Shown here: positions 33,535-62,522 of the stretch, in pieces
Layout of the letters: the number at the start of each line of letters is the position of its first letter
How positions within the stretch are numbered: the first letter of the stretch is position 1
NCBI RefSeq assembly: GCF_900459225.1
Contig: NZ_UHFH01000003.1
Coordinates: 1,208,501 to 1,272,500, forward strand
Direction of reading: 5' to 3'
Length of the DNA stretch: 64,000 nucleotides
Origin: Streptococcus dysgalactiae subsp. dysgalactiae
GTDB taxonomy: Bacteria; Bacillota; Bacilli; Lactobacillales; Streptococcaceae
The notes under the pieces: generated by a model
The model's database searches: none
Seen by the model: only the letters and a program-made list of their open reading frames with translations
What the model was told of the DNA's origin: nothing
Made by a program: the position numbers and the translations under genes

Positions 33535-35367
33535 TTATTTTTTAGCATCGTCATCCATTGAGAGAACACTCAAGAAAGCTTCTTGAGGGACTTCTACCGA
33601 ACCAATCGATTTCATGCGTTTTTTACCGGCTTTTTGCTTTTCGAGTAATTTACGTTTACGAGACACGTCACCACCATAACACTTAGCCAAAACGTTTTTA
33701 CGAAGGGCCTTGATGTCTGAACGAGCAACAATTTTTTGACCGATAGCCGCTTGAATAGGCACTTCAAATTGTTGACGTGGAATGATCTTTTTCAACTTAT
33801 CAACAATAATTTTCCCACGTTCATAAGCAAATTCTTTATGGACAATAAAGCTGAGCGCATCAACCTTATCCCCATTCAGCAGAATATCCATTTTCACCAG
33901 TTGTGACTTGCGGTATTCTGAAATTTCATAATCAAAGCTAGCATAGCCACGCGTTGATGATTTCAATTTATCAAAGAAATCAAACACAATTTCAGCCAGC
34001 GGAATTTGGTAAATCACATTGACACGATTATCATCAATATAATCCATGGTTACAAAGTCTCCACGCTTGCGCTGCGACAATTCCATAACAGCCCCAACGA
34101 ACTCTTGTGGCACCATGATTTGCGCTTTAACATAAGGCTCTTCAATAGAAGCCACCCGCGTTGGATCAGGAAATTCTGAGGGATTAGACACTTCAATCAT
34201 ACCCCCATCAGTTGTGTGAACGTGATACACCACGGACGGTGCTGTCATGATCAAATCAATGTTAAACTCACGCTCTAAACGTTCTTGAATCACGTCCATA
34301 TGAAGCAAACCTAAAAATCCACAACGGAAACCAAAGCCAAGAGCTTGTGACGTTTCTGGTTCAAACTGTAAACTGGCATCATTCAGTTGTAATTTTTCAA
34401 GCGCTTCACGCAAGTCATTGTATTTATTTGATTCAATCGGATAAATCCCTGCAAAGACCATGGGATTCATTTGTTTGTAGCCATGCAAGGCTTCCTTAGC
34501 TGGGTTATTAGCTAAAGTTACCGTATCCCCCACCCGAGTATCCGCTACTGTTTTAATAGAAGCCGCAACATAACCAACATCTCCCGTCGAAAGGAAATCT
34601 CGTCCAACTGCCTTAGGAGTGAAAATCCCAACTTCTGTGACATCAAAGGTTTTTCCATTCGACATCATTTGAATTTTATCGCCAGGTTTGACAATACCAT
34701 TCACAATCCGAACTTGCAGGATAACGCCTCGATAAGCATCGTAAACAGAGTCAAAAATCAAGGCTTGTAAAGGCGAATCCACATCACCCGTAGGAGCAGG
34801 AACCTTCTCAACAATTTGCTCAAGAATTTCTTCAATCCCGATACCAGCCTTAGCTGACGCCAGAACAGCCTCAGAAGCATCAAGTCCAATGACATCTTCC
34901 ACTTCATGGCGAACCCGTTCTGGATCAGCAGCCGGCAAATCAATTTTATTGATAACAGGTAAAATTTCCAAATCATTGTCGAGGGCTAGGTAAACGTTAG
35001 CCAATGTCTGCGCTTCAATTCCCTGCGCTGCATCAACCACTAGAATAGCTCCCTCGCAGGCTGCCAACGAACGAGATACTTCATAAGTAAAGTCCACATG
35101 CCCTGGGGTATCAATAAGGTGGAAAATGTACGTTTCCCCATCCTTAGCCGTATAATTAAGCTCAATAGCGTTTAACTTGATGGTAATCCCACGCTCACGC
35201 TCCAAATCCATGGAGTCCAGTAACTGGGCCTGCATTTCACGAGAGGAAACGGTCTCGGTCTTTTCCAAAATGCGATCAGCGAGAGTAGATTTGCCATGGT
35301 CAATATGTGCAATAATGGAGAAATTACGAATCTTCTCCTGACGTTTCTTTAAATCTTGACTGTTCAT
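33535..35367 (-). CDS. lepA: Elongation factor 4
   Basis: A 610-residue ribosome-bound GTPase. G1 is AHIDHGKST (20-28), G2 RERGIT, G3 DTPGHVDF and G4 NKIDLPAA. Domains II, III and V follow, and the LepA-specific C-terminal domain has [24 protein letters not shown] (first 20 considered). It back-translocates or remodels stalled ribosomes. It is transcribed apart from ndk, with a terminator between them. Confidence 0.98.
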
Positions 35368-35436: not shown

Positions 35437-35895
35437 TTACTGATTATCTTTCGGAACAATAGCAGAGCTATCAAGTTCAGCTTGATTAAACCAAAGGGCA
35501 ATCTCACGCCTAGCCGAGTCTCTTGAATCGGACCCATGCACCACGTTAAAAATACCTCCATCATCACCAGGAGCTTGGGCAAAATCACCACGAATGGTTC
35601 CGGGAAGAGCATCCTTAGGATTAGTTACCCCCATCATGGTTCGCCAAGAGGAAATCACCCGATTTCCCGACAGCACCCCAATTAAAACAGGACCACTTGT
35701 CATGTAAGCTTCAAGCTCAGGATAAAATGGTTTAGTTAGCAAGGCTTCGTAGTGCTTAGCCAAGAGTTCCGGACTAGCTTGCCGCAACTCCAAGCGTTCA
35801 AATGTAAATCCTCGACGCTCAATCCGCCGCAAAACCTCTCCAACTAACCCTCGCTTAACCCCATCCGGCTTAATCATAAAAAATGTTTGTTCCAT
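35437..35895 (-). CDS. ndk: Nucleoside-diphosphate kinase
   Basis: 152 residues. The catalytic histidine is His120 in [16 protein letters not shown], and [14 protein letters not shown] is the family start. It balances nucleoside triphosphates. A strong GGAGG precedes ATG 35895 and a cre-like site lies 37 bases further up. The C-terminal tail after WFNQAELD is a little longer than in the shortest forms. Confidence 0.96.
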
Positions 35896-35931
35896 CGCTC
35901 CACCCTCCTTCTCCTTTTGACTATTATAACA

Positions 35932-35947
35932 TGAAAACGTTTTAATA
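35932..35947. promoter_or_regulatory. cre-like site upstream of ndk
   Basis: ATGAAAACGTTTTAAT, one fixed position away from the CcpA consensus. It is the same core as upstream of the PTS operon. Confidence 0.45.
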
Positions 35948-36013
35948 GAAAGAATAGAAAGGCATAAGGATATGGTCTTTATCCCTCTCTCTCAAGTTAC
36001 CATTGACGATGTT

Positions 36014-36107
36014 GAATTAAAACCATTCAAAACAACATAGCTCTAAAACTTATCATCATAATAATTAGATATATTAGTAGTTTTGGGACCATTCAAAACA
36101 ACATAGC
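36014..36107 (-). CRISPR. Remnant type II-A CRISPR array: degenerate terminal repeat, one spacer, one fused repeat
   Basis: Read on the plus strand, 36023-36049 is the reverse complement of the Cas9-type repeat (CCATTCAAAACAACATAGC then TCTAAAAC). Its other end (36014-36022) is degenerate, as in a trailer-end repeat. A 30-nt spacer follows (36050-36079), the standard length for this type. The next repeat begins intact with GTTTTGGGACCATTC (36080) but after CATAGC (36107) it changes into the tracrRNA tail. No leader and no cas9, cas1, cas2 or csn2 is present; the next genes are ordinary housekeeping genes. The unit is presumably inactive. Confidence 0.9.
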
Positions 36108-36168
36108 AAGTTAAAATAAGGCTAGTCCGTTATCAACTTGAAAAAGTGGCACCGAGTCGGTGCTTTTT
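36085..36168 (+). ncRNA. tracrRNA remnant fused to a CRISPR repeat
   Basis: From about 36090 the plus strand carries the anti-repeat CATTCAAAACAACATAGCAAG, the nexus AAGGCTAGTCCGTTATCA (36118-36135), the AACTTGAAAAAGT hairpin, and the terminal hairpin GGCACCGAGTCGGTGC (36148-36163) with a T-run. This matches the known S. pyogenes Cas9 tracrRNA scaffold. The sequence left of the anti-repeat is array DNA and not the normal tracrRNA 5' region, so the native promoters have been lost and transcription is doubtful. Confidence 0.9.
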
Positions 36169-36198
36169 GTATCTTTATTTTACCTTGTCGATAAACTA

Positions 36199-36227
36199 AA
36201 AACAAGCGTTTTCAAAGCGCTTGTTTT
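36199..36227. terminator. Terminator after the HAD/thioesterase operon
   Basis: AAAACAAGCG and CGCTTGTTTT form a perfect 10-bp stem with a 9-base loop and U-runs. Confidence 0.75.
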
Positions 36228-36264
36228 CTTGTTTTTGAAAAATGAATTCCTTAATTTTGAGTTG

Positions 36265-36897
36265 CTACTTTATCTTTGGGCTCTGCCATTTTGCCAATCC
36301 CACTAACCCCCATAGAAGAGCTTCGTAAATGGTGATAAAAAAGAGAAAACAGTGCAAGAAAAAGACTTCTGGAAGAATCCAGATCACAGGATCTTTCAAG
36401 GGGTCAAAGAGCCAATTGTTATCTCCTACAAAAAGCACCTTATGAAAAAGAATAAAAAAGTTTTCAAATCCAATAACACTAGCCATTAACCCAATCATAA
36501 GAGGAAACAAAGCTGCTATTATTAAAGGCCTTTGAATGGACCAGAAACTTTTAGTTTTGAATCTTTGCTTAAAAGACTTGACCGTTGGGTAAAGGAAACC
36601 TAGAAAGACGACTTGTGTGAGATGAAAAAACCACTTGACGTCTGCAAAATGCTTAAGCCCATCTGTCGACGATCTAAAACTAGCAAACGTCAAACTTGTC
36701 TCAAAGGGATTAGTGAGGTAATTGAGTAATCCGTTATAGTTATGCAAGATAGCATCCTTGCTCATAAAAACAACTTGTTCTAATTTCAGGTACTCCACCT
36801 CAAGAGGATACCATAGCCAAGCTGAATAGATTGTCATGAGAATGGCTAACACTAATATCCATATCCAGCTGCAAAGTAATTTAATGTTTTCTACCAT
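36265..36897 (-). CDS. TIGR01906-family membrane protein
   Basis: About 210 residues with some five membrane segments (first at about residues 5-27). The family is common in lactobacilli and streptococci, always without known function. The ATG at 36897 overlaps the TGA of the HAD gene (TGATG), so translation is coupled. A GTG at 36909 is the longer alternative. It is the gene that flanks the CRISPR scar on the right. Confidence 0.78.
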   Translation of the reverse strand: MVENIKLLCSWIWILVLAILMTIYSAWLWYPLEVEYLKLEQVVFMSKDAILHNYNGLLNYLTNPFETSLTFASFRSSTDGLKHFADVKWFFHLTQVVFLGFLYPTVKSFKQRFKTKSFWSIQRPLIIAALFPLMIGLMASVIGFENFFILFHKVLFVGDNNWLFDPLKDPVIWILPEVFFLHCFLFFITIYEALLWGLVGLAKWQSPKIK

Positions 36898-37661
36898 CAC
36901 AATTCCCACTCATCAAGACTAGATAGGACATGATCTGGCTGCACTGGTAATGTTGGTAATTCTTCAGGTCTCGTAAAACCTGTTGTCACCAGAATGGTTG
37001 CAATATCATTTTGAATGCCTGCCATAATATCAGTCAAGTAATTATCCCCAACCATCACTGCTTCGGAACGTTTGACTCCTAGGACTTCTAGTGATTTATT
37101 CATAATGATAGCATTGGGTTTTCCGATAAAAACAGGCTTCACACGTGTGGCAGCTTCTAATAAGGCATTCAATGCACCTGCTCCTGGCATCAGGCCACGT
37201 TCAGTCGGAATGTTTAAATCAGGATTTGTCCCAATAAAGAGGGCACCCTTTTGAATAGCCAAGGTGGCTATGGCTAACATCTCATAGGTCACCTGACTGT
37301 CTAAACCAACCACCACGTAAGCGGGATTCTCAAGTTCTTCTACATAGCCTGCGGCTGCAATAGCCGATTTAAGTCCAGTCTCACCAATAACATACGCTGT
37401 TTTGCCACGGTTCATGTCATTCATGTAATCAACGGTCGCCATAGTAGCTGTGTAGATAGTCTCAATGCCTGTCTCAACATTAAACTGTTTAGACAACATG
37501 TCTTGAACCATTTCAGGTGTGCGTGTTGTATTATTAGTCACCAATAAATAGGGAAGGTCTTTTTCTTGTAGGCGTTTGATAAACCGTTCCCCTGCTGGAA
37601 TACGGTTTTTCCCTTGGTAAATTGTTCCGTCTAAATCAATTAAATAACCCTTATAAGGCAC
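36897..37661 (-). CDS. TIGR01457/NagD-like HAD phosphatase
   Basis: 254 residues. Motif I is [14 protein letters not shown], motif [11 protein letters not shown], motif [18 protein letters not shown] and motif [16 protein letters not shown]. The C2-type cap fits the p-nitrophenylphosphatase/NagD group. The physiological substrate is unknown. GTG start, one base overlapping the thioesterase stop (TAGTG). Confidence 0.88.
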
Positions 37662-38423: not shown

Positions 38424-39554
38424 CTAATCTAATATAAACCGCTCAGCAACAGAATCACCTAAGAAAAGACCCTTTTTAGTCATTCTGACAAAGGCATCAT
38501 CTTTGACAAGCAGTCCTTGATCTTGAAGATCCCTAACAATAGTTCCATAGCGCTCCTCAAAAGAAATACCAAATTTTTCTTGAAATCGCTGGATGAAGAC
38601 TCCTGTCTTTTTACGTAATCCTAAAAAGAGTTCCTCTTCCATCATTTCCTCTTTGCGCAGCACTTCCTCATTTAGTCTAGCATTCCCTGCTTCAACTGCC
38701 TTAAGGTAGTGCTGAATCGGTACCCTATTTTGATAGCGAATGCCATTAAGGTAACCCGAAGCCCCTGCACCACATCCAAAATATTCAACATTATCCCAAT
38801 ACATCAAGTTATGACGACTTTCAAAACCAGGTTTGGTAAAATTGGAAATTTCATAATGCTCAAAACCATTAGCTTCCATTTCTGAAATAATATACTCAAA
38901 CATTTCCGCTTCCAAGTCTTCCGTTGGTAAGTTAAGTTTACCACGTCGCATTTTGTTCATAAAAACGGTGTGATGTTCCAAAATAAGGCTATAAAGACTA
39001 AGGTGGGGAATATCAAGTGCCAGAGCTTTAGCAACATTTTCCTTGACTTGAGCTAAGGTTTGACCTGGCAAAGCATAAATTAAATCAATGGAAATATTGT
39101 GAAAGCCTGCAGCTTTTAAATTAGCGATGGTGCTATAAATTTGTTCTTCATTATGGCTACGGCCAATCTGCTTTAATTGTTTATTATTAAAGGTTTGCAC
39201 ACCAAGCGAAATCCGGTTGACAGATGATTGTTTGAGCACTTCAATTTTATCTGGGGTTAAATCACCAGGATTGGCCTCAATAGTGAACTCTTCAAGATAA
39301 TCTAAATTGAGGTTTCGTTCAAGGTGACTTAATAAATACTTCAGCTGAGCTGCAGTAATCGCCGTTGGCGTTCCCCCTCCAATATAAAGAGTCTTTAAGT
39401 CATTAATGTCATAGGATTCGAATTCTTGAATCAGCGCTTCCAAGTAGGCATCAACAGGTTGATTTTGGATAAAGACTTTAGAAAAGTCACAATAGTAACA
39501 AATTTGTGTGCAAAAAGGAATATGCACATAAGCTGAGGTAGGTTTTTTTGACAT
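38424..39554 (-). CDS. hemW: Radical SAM protein HemW (oxygen-independent coproporphyrinogen oxidase-like)
   Basis: 376 residues. The iron-sulfur cluster cysteines are Cys15, Cys19 and Cys22 (FCTQICYYCDF). The GGGTPTAI and VNRISLGVQTF segments are typical. These streptococci make no haem, and the cysteine spacing of HemW without the HemN-specific extension suggests a haem chaperone. It is the first gene of the run to 36265. Confidence 0.9.
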   Translation of the reverse strand: MSKKPTSAYVHIPFCTQICYYCDFSKVFIQNQPVDAYLEALIQEFESYDINDLKTLYIGGGTPTAITAAQLKYLLSHLERNLNLDYLEEFTIEANPGDLTPDKIEVLKQSSVNRISLGVQTFNNKQLKQIGRSHNEEQIYSTIANLKAAGFHNISIDLIYALPGQTLAQVKENVAKALALDIPHLSLYSLILEHHTVFMNKMRRGKLNLPTEDLEAEMFEYIISEMEANGFEHYEISNFTKPGFESRHNLMYWDNVEYFGCGAGASGYLNGIRYQNRVPIQHYLKAVEAGNARLNEEVLRKEEMMEEELFLGLRKKTGVFIQRFQEKFGISFEERYGTIVRDLQDQGLLVKDDAFVRMTKKGLFLGDSVAERFILD

Positions 39555-62352: not shown

Positions 62353-62416
62353 CTTGTTCCTCACATTTCATCTTCATATCGTTAACAGATTGATGAGAAT
62401 ACTTTTTAAAAGAAAA

Positions 62417-62450
62417 AGCACTTAGTAATGACTACTAGGCGCTCTTGTGA
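62417..62450 (-). terminator. Leader terminator (attenuator) before trpX
   Basis: On the minus strand AGCGCCTAGTA pairs with TACTAAGTGCT (one wobble, one mismatch) and is followed by UUUUUCUUUU, about 65 bases ahead of the trpX start. A terminator between promoter and gene implies conditional read-through. Confidence 0.75.
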
Positions 62451-62495
62451 AATCCAATCTTAGCCTTAGCGCACAGATATCTTTTTAGAAGTACT

Positions 62496-62522
62496 CTAAA
62501 AGTCGTATCTATGCCAATCCAT
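62496..62522 (-). CDS. Second short leader ORF with a Trp codon (MDWHRYDF)
   Basis: ATG GAT TGG CAT AGA TAC GAC TTT TAG. It repeats the TGGCATAGATA segment of the first leader peptide. The ribosome site is weak, so it may be a duplicated pairing element and not a translated peptide. Confidence 0.35.
   Translation of the reverse strand: MDWHRYDF

Follow-up and report, generated by a model that had tools for sequence, protein, structure and literature searches.

How does a CRISPR repeat come to be fused to a tracrRNA in a chromosomal region without a cas operon? CRISPR-Cas systems are commonly lost, and their loss has been linked to prophages and to gene uptake; the route by which they go is rarely known. 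The question is posed by the window, the whole 64,000-nucleotide stretch of Streptococcus dysgalactiae subsp. dysgalactiae DNA analysed here, in which the following elements lie side by side.

35437..35895, − strand: ndk (presumed from its translation), the left flank gene; several Cas9-linked relatives have a homologous segment to the left of their arrays.
36014..36049, + strand: terminal (leader-distal) CRISPR repeat of 36 nt, its first part degenerate, in tracrRNA orientation; read from the sequence, in register 66 nt before the hybrid.
36050..36079, + strand: last remaining (oldest) spacer, 30 nt; prophage matches and an AGG PAM.
36080..36107, + strand: hybrid element of 28 nt, its 5' end CRISPR repeat (GTTTTGGGACC), its 3' end running into tracrRNA; sequence and Rfam.
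36108..36168, + strand: tracrRNA tail with nexus and terminator hairpins, promoter lost; RF02348, 98 bits.
36265..36909, − strand: membrane protein of TIGR01906 type (so named in the original prediction), the right flank gene; right flank alignments.

The original prediction had described a degenerate repeat, a 30-nt spacer and a second repeat that changes into tracrRNA. Its coordinates proved exact and Rfam agrees: a full-length match to the tracrRNA family RF02348 covers 36081-36170 (98 bits against a cut-off of 70; E = 5.4e-15), and CRISPR-DR22 is called at the same spot, 36080-36115. The sequence GTTTTGGGACCATTCAAAACAACATAGC at 36080-36107 corresponds to the opening 28 nt of a repeat read in this direction, and the crossover was placed inside 36088-36107, the shared stretch of the hybrid; this single hybrid repeat copy has its 5' part from one partner and its 3' part from the other. 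The 20-nt core is present in two exact copies in the window, the chance expectation being 0.01 at up to three mismatches. The predicted fold of 36080-36168 (z = −2.0) adds little. The scar in the window holds only one repeat-spacer unit. Elsewhere in the window, on the − strand, Rfam marks a PyrR binding site and a trpB ncRNA motif at 1335-1449 and 62406-62515.

The spacer was judged genuine because it matches Streptococcus prophages Javan149, Javan447, Javan476 and Javan492, from S. dysgalactiae and S. pyogenes hosts, at 30 of 30 positions next to an NGG PAM, AGG being found at the right side of the target in all four. The targeted gene is annotated as a putative replication protein in each of them, and one IMG/VR contig shows the same match and PAM. 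No second copy of the spacer was found in its own genome at up to three mismatches, nor did 1.5 kb of the matching prophage replication region match the genome beyond the spacer. Self-targeting was considered as a cause of loss and rejected, the target being absent from the genome except for the spacer itself.

Besides ndk, two further − strand genes can be named from their translations: 33535-35367, which we take to be lepA, and 38424-39554, presumably hemN. The pair that surrounds the scar is also reported to enclose CRISPR1 of S. pyogenes (Nozawa 2011, PMC3089615). Several Cas9-linked relatives have left and right neighbours that are both homologous to those in the window, and the right flank aligned with Cas9-linked loci L099 (83.9%) and L103 (86.1%). 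In a comparison with the Cas9-linked tracrRNA of the genome carrying L103 (G174), 61 of 62 columns of the tail are identical, and a 700-bp flank is 82% identical. Since the tail is still intact, we infer from these sequences that it was probably under selection until recently and that the loss would be recent. Locus L103 itself has Cas9 and tracrRNA, with no repeat in the 10.5 kb upstream or genome-wide by the repeat-end pattern; it is a case of array loss with the operon kept. Among compared genomes of S. dysgalactiae subsp. equisimilis, 15% are reported to be without a CRISPR system (PMC8319831).

A search for cas9 elsewhere in the genome, proposed in the original prediction, found none with either of two models (PF13395 and TIGR01865); one Cas1 is encoded at C3:1555836, outside the window. 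A consensus scan of 35850-36300 found no promoter-like site on the + strand, an interval in which about 1.4 chance sites are expected on both strands, so that the absence weighs little alone. Lacking an evident promoter, a leader and a Cas9, the scar is expected to be silent, and to judge from its sequence it is probably non-functional now. The same evidence bears on the idea that the locus is a miniature functional unit, in which the spacer and a tracrRNA with a longer anti-repeat would act in trans with a transient Cas9. The PAM next to the spacer target and the intact tracrRNA tail would suit such a unit, and an orphan array of E. faecalis is reported to have been activated by supplied cas9 and tracrRNA (PMC5491264); with the tracrRNA promoter and the array leader both missing, no promoter-like site on the + strand and no Cas9 in the genome, we consider it very improbable. 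Nor does a collapsed or chimeric join made by the assembler deserve more than nominal weight: assemblers can err at short repeats and this assembly (G000) consists of three contigs, yet the junction lies inside a contig of 2.14 Mb, no Cas9 is encoded anywhere in the genome, whose completeness is rated at 100%, and junctions of this kind were met in numerous separate assemblies (see below).

Intact and cas-less relatives were collected from 284 Streptococcus species genomes, which were used as the survey after an exact search of GTDB contigs for the scar pattern had returned only 5 loci. RF02348, whose filters miss some weak matches, gave 120 tracrRNA matches in 118 of the 284 genomes; by TIGR01865, Cas9 is present in 116, in 111 of them over the cut-off. 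Matches at most 5 kb from a Cas9 were called Cas9-linked (71) and the others orphan (49), the window's own being orphan L045. The original prediction held that in S. pyogenes the anti-repeat is a direct repeat of the CRISPR repeat at the far side of the operon. This anatomy was borne out in 64 of the 70 Cas9-linked loci examined (L142 left out), where two or more array repeats precede the tracrRNA on its upstream side and point the same way as its anti-repeat; the distance from the leader-proximal repeat to the tracrRNA has a median of 6.4 kb (6.1-9.1 kb). Since these repeats lie upstream in the orientation of the anti-repeat, anti-repeat and repeat form direct repeats around the leader and the cas genes. 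Exact identity between consensus repeat and anti-repeat extends over only 8-11 nt in 13 of the 64 intact loci, a point against the recombination reading. Eight intact loci (L089, L094, L100, L102, L124, L127, L148 and L151) also have a single inverted repeat copy at about 80-190 bp on the 5' side of the tracrRNA.

The 5' edge of the tracrRNA gene differs between the two sets. A promoter-like site lies 5' of the tracrRNA in 67 of the 71 Cas9-linked genes vs 10 of the 49 orphans. The anti-repeat begins with TGTTGG in 55 of the 71 Cas9-linked genes and with TTTTGG in one, L142. An intact locus whose tracrRNA already has the flank GTTTTGG had been named at the outset as evidence against a junction of this kind; L142 is the one such case in 71, and is itself a probable scar. 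In this locus (G081; tracrRNA at locus offset 10500) a scar-like repeat/tracrRNA hybrid at the ndk site adjoins the locus of a small Cas9 (1144 aa), which gives the impression that a second, unrelated system settled beside a scar.

The 49 orphans and L142 were aligned to the Cas9-linked loci by BLAST (n = 50). With 12 queries (L040, L041, L044, L045, L047, L049, L052, L056, L057, L063, L065 and L084) the left alignment runs out after 28 nt of an array repeat, the right one begins at the anti-repeat, and the two overlap by 17-29 nt; with 6 others both flanks aligned with a gap, and the remaining 32 gave no double match to Cas9-linked loci. A close pair is L049 (G024) with L102 (G025), whose flanks are 95.5% and 97.4% identical. 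For L041 and for the window the left match consists of an array piece only (about 85 bases in the window), a weaker fit than that of the other ten. In a simulation that drew deletions at random, with one end in the array and the other near the tracrRNA, such a hybrid arose in 0.085% of 1.28 million draws. The break had been predicted to fall inside the stretch shared by repeat and anti-repeat, with both flanks fitting an intact locus. It does so in the 12 Streptococcus queries and in two pairs from another genus (see below); in the window the left flank could not be aligned beyond the array piece, the alignable parts being the conserved site, the right flank (82-86%) and that piece.

Scars of this type were then sorted by what precedes the hybrid. 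In eight orphans (L041, L043, L045, L047, L052, L058, L072 and L085), vs none of the 71 Cas9-linked genes, a repeat stands one unit (66 nt) in register 5' of the tracrRNA, as in the window. In 11 more the terminal repeat itself is fused to the tracrRNA. Nine of these (L040, L046, L049, L063, L065, L077, L079, L084 and L088) agree, over the 45 nt that precede the hybrid, with the array end of a relative at 31-45 of 45 positions, a level of 30 being reached by none of 70 Cas9-linked loci; L056 and L057 were classed on their break-point alignment. One of the nine, L088 (G089), has a hybrid that keeps the repeat's own 3' letters (CTCTAAAA) before returning to the tracrRNA tail, as if a second crossover or a conversion had taken place. 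In six others (L044, classed on break-point overlap, and L048, L050, L053, L054 and L070, classed by eye) the repeat fused to the tracrRNA is the one downstream of a 413-bp insert; a stretch of about this length separates the terminal from the next repeat in all six and also in the intact array L093 (G143). Two repeat ends 449 bp apart occur in G007, which has no tracrRNA match.

In all, 25 of the 49 orphans were classed as repeat/tracrRNA scars, 20 because they satisfy one or more fixed rules and 5 by eye, vs none of 70 Cas9-linked loci (one-sided Fisher test, 1.9e-12, a value that rests on our own classification and ignores kinship). Near the 25 scars no hit was obtained to the ORFs taken as Cas9, Cas1, Cas2 or Csn2. 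The 24 orphans outside the class include three probable scars (L042, L055 and L069, to which L142 is to be added from the Cas9-linked set) and four near contig ends, where cas genes may be on another contig (L051, L060, L066 and L076); the rest are decayed or lie within unrelated sequence. Viewed by genome, 173 of the 284 have no Cas9 over the cut-off. Of these, 115 have neither a tracrRNA match nor a repeat end (counted by one repeat-end pattern with at most one mismatch), 20 have a repeat end only and 38 still have a tracrRNA match; among these 38 are 21 with a scar and 3 more with a probable one. The other four scar genomes have a Cas9 elsewhere. A search of plasmids returned 5 records, with repeat-like pieces in Streptococcus and Listeria and tracrRNA-tail copies in one Klebsiella and two E. 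coli; the latter (H23-H25) are exact copies of 63-66 nt of the tail and are probably guide-RNA scaffolds of engineered vectors.

Similar junctions are found in other genera. A tracrRNA match was obtained in 76 of 395 genomes sampled from across the order, and 56 of these 76 belong to genera other than Streptococcus; nine of the 56 have no Cas9 match, and four of these nine, from three genera, carry scars (L166, L167, L169 and L171, the last two read by eye from the in-register unit), the other five being no scars. Two could be laid against close intact relatives: L166 against L175 (left 2.6 kb at 94.5%, right 1.6 kb at 96.3%, overlap 25 nt) and L167 against L174 (left 3.0 kb at 97.0%, right 1.6 kb at 95.0%, overlap 28 nt). 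L167 retains a spacer in which, by eye, 28 of 30 positions are shared with the terminal spacer of L174. Because their crossovers lie at different places in the shared stretch, L166 and L167 look independent.

The number of events within Streptococcus depends on how the flanks are used. The 25 scars fall into 17 groups by both flanks (19 at 85% identity) and into 9 groups under the strictest rule, by which scars are linked through either flank. At one conserved site, which is not that of the window, the scar and intact states of 23 Streptococcus loci require at least seven changes, in either direction, on a right-flank tree that was quickly made, has six open forks, includes the probable scar L042 and concerns flanks that may themselves recombine. 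On the strength of these comparisons, the proposition that repeat/tracrRNA scars form generally among type II-A relatives, and do so recurrently, appears to hold up. The changes on that tree could include allele exchange, and with it the possibility that the window's scar was imported together with its flanks from another strain by homologous recombination, the deletion having happened elsewhere. We regard this as unlikely, although it is the least unlikely of the alternatives: no donor was identified, and the tree that lends it support is the provisional one just described, for a site other than the window's. The initial event would in any case be identical.

With the hybrid junction, the lack of Cas9, the direct-repeat anatomy of the Cas9-linked relatives, the break points in other lineages and the recurrence all observed, the window is very probably the remnant of a type II-A locus of the SpyCas9 type at the lepA-ndk/hemN site, deleted through an event between repeat and anti-repeat. 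Such a locus would formerly have occupied this conserved site. Because the tracrRNA gene and the cas operon are transcribed divergently, the anti-repeat would have been a direct repeat of every array repeat, at a distance of some 6-7 kb. Crossing over, or strand annealing, of the anti-repeat with a repeat from the oldest part of the array would then have removed the tracrRNA promoter together with cas9, cas1, cas2 and csn2, as well as the leader and almost every spacer, leaving behind one hybrid repeat/tracrRNA element. Repeat-anti-repeat recombination or strand annealing is the simplest path, with RecA, replication slippage or break repair as possible agents. On this reading, the window's own lineage would have taken this path rather than importing a ready scar, and one step would have been enough. 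The original prediction, that the system deletes itself by one recombination, is supported as to mechanism; the single step is not proven, for the one spacer may reflect later shrinkage of the array.

The paucity of spacers deserves separate consideration. By a repeat scan and by eye, scars retain 0-2 spacers vs a median of 18.5 repeats per intact array in the 10.5 kb retrieved. This could mean that the event favours the oldest part of the array, or that arrays shrank afterwards as their repeats recombined with one another. A probability of 3.5e-13 calculated for so few remaining spacers was set aside, as it assumes uniform choice among 18 repeats in 16 events and ignores later shrinkage. The bias might also betray an enzymatic event in place of plain repeat recombination, either Cas1-Cas2 acting on the anti-repeat or repair after Cas9 had cut the locus. 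Given that later shrinkage likewise ends at few spacers, and that the crossover points vary between scars (for instance between L166 and L167), as expected of recombination, an enzymatic origin seems to us quite unlikely.

If recombination between repeat and anti-repeat is indeed the route, DNA of the scar type reveals how immunity was lost: the match between anti-repeat and repeat, needed for immunity, doubles as a deletion substrate. Fragility is predicted for CRISPR layouts whose tracrRNA is directly oriented and lies beyond the cas operon, the repeat/tracrRNA scar becomes a marker of past loss in "CRISPR-negative" strains, and its sequence can be used for measuring deletion rates. More speculatively, and with little expectation on our part that it will prove correct, a type II-A locus might be seen as a cassette with built-in, functionally conserved end repeats. 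Its deletion handles could not be lost by mutation, since immunity depends on the agreement of anti-repeat and CRISPR repeat, and its excised circle, carrying operon, leader, array and the reciprocal hybrid, could recombine back into the scar and restore the exact locus. The loss could in that case be undone, with the scar as a landing site.

Stout 2018 is said to deal with deletion-based escape in Lactobacillus gasseri; like other subscription papers it lies outside the literature searched, in whose available texts no description of a repeat-tracrRNA deletion route was found. It is on record that spacers are lost when repeats recombine and that entire loci can disappear (PMC8047081, PMC8265633, PMC6546361, PMC8841824, PMC11893278). 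A near relation of the window's locus is the type II-A CRISPR1 of S. pyogenes (cas9-cas1-cas2-csn2), with which it shares the type of repeat and tracrRNA, the NGG PAM and the lepA-hemN site, and from which it differs in having no cas operon, leader or tracrRNA promoter and all but one of the spacers missing. An isolated terminal repeat at the CRISPR1 site, similar to that in the scar, is reported for S. pyogenes MGAS10750 (Nozawa 2011, PMC3089615); MGAS10750 and MGAS315 are reported to have cas genes and are thus array losses, and no tracrRNA junction is described in the available text of that paper. Six isolates of Mycoplasma gallisepticum are reported to have lost a type II cas operon in nature (PMC11893278); unlike the scar, they kept the array and lost the tracrRNA, with a different junction. 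Comparable in kind is the spacer loss by CRISPR repeat recombination described, for example, in S. mutans P42S (PMC8265633; reviewed in PMC8047081). There, as in the scar, direct repeat copies recombine; in the scar one partner is the tracrRNA anti-repeat, so that the cas operon is lost and not spacers alone.
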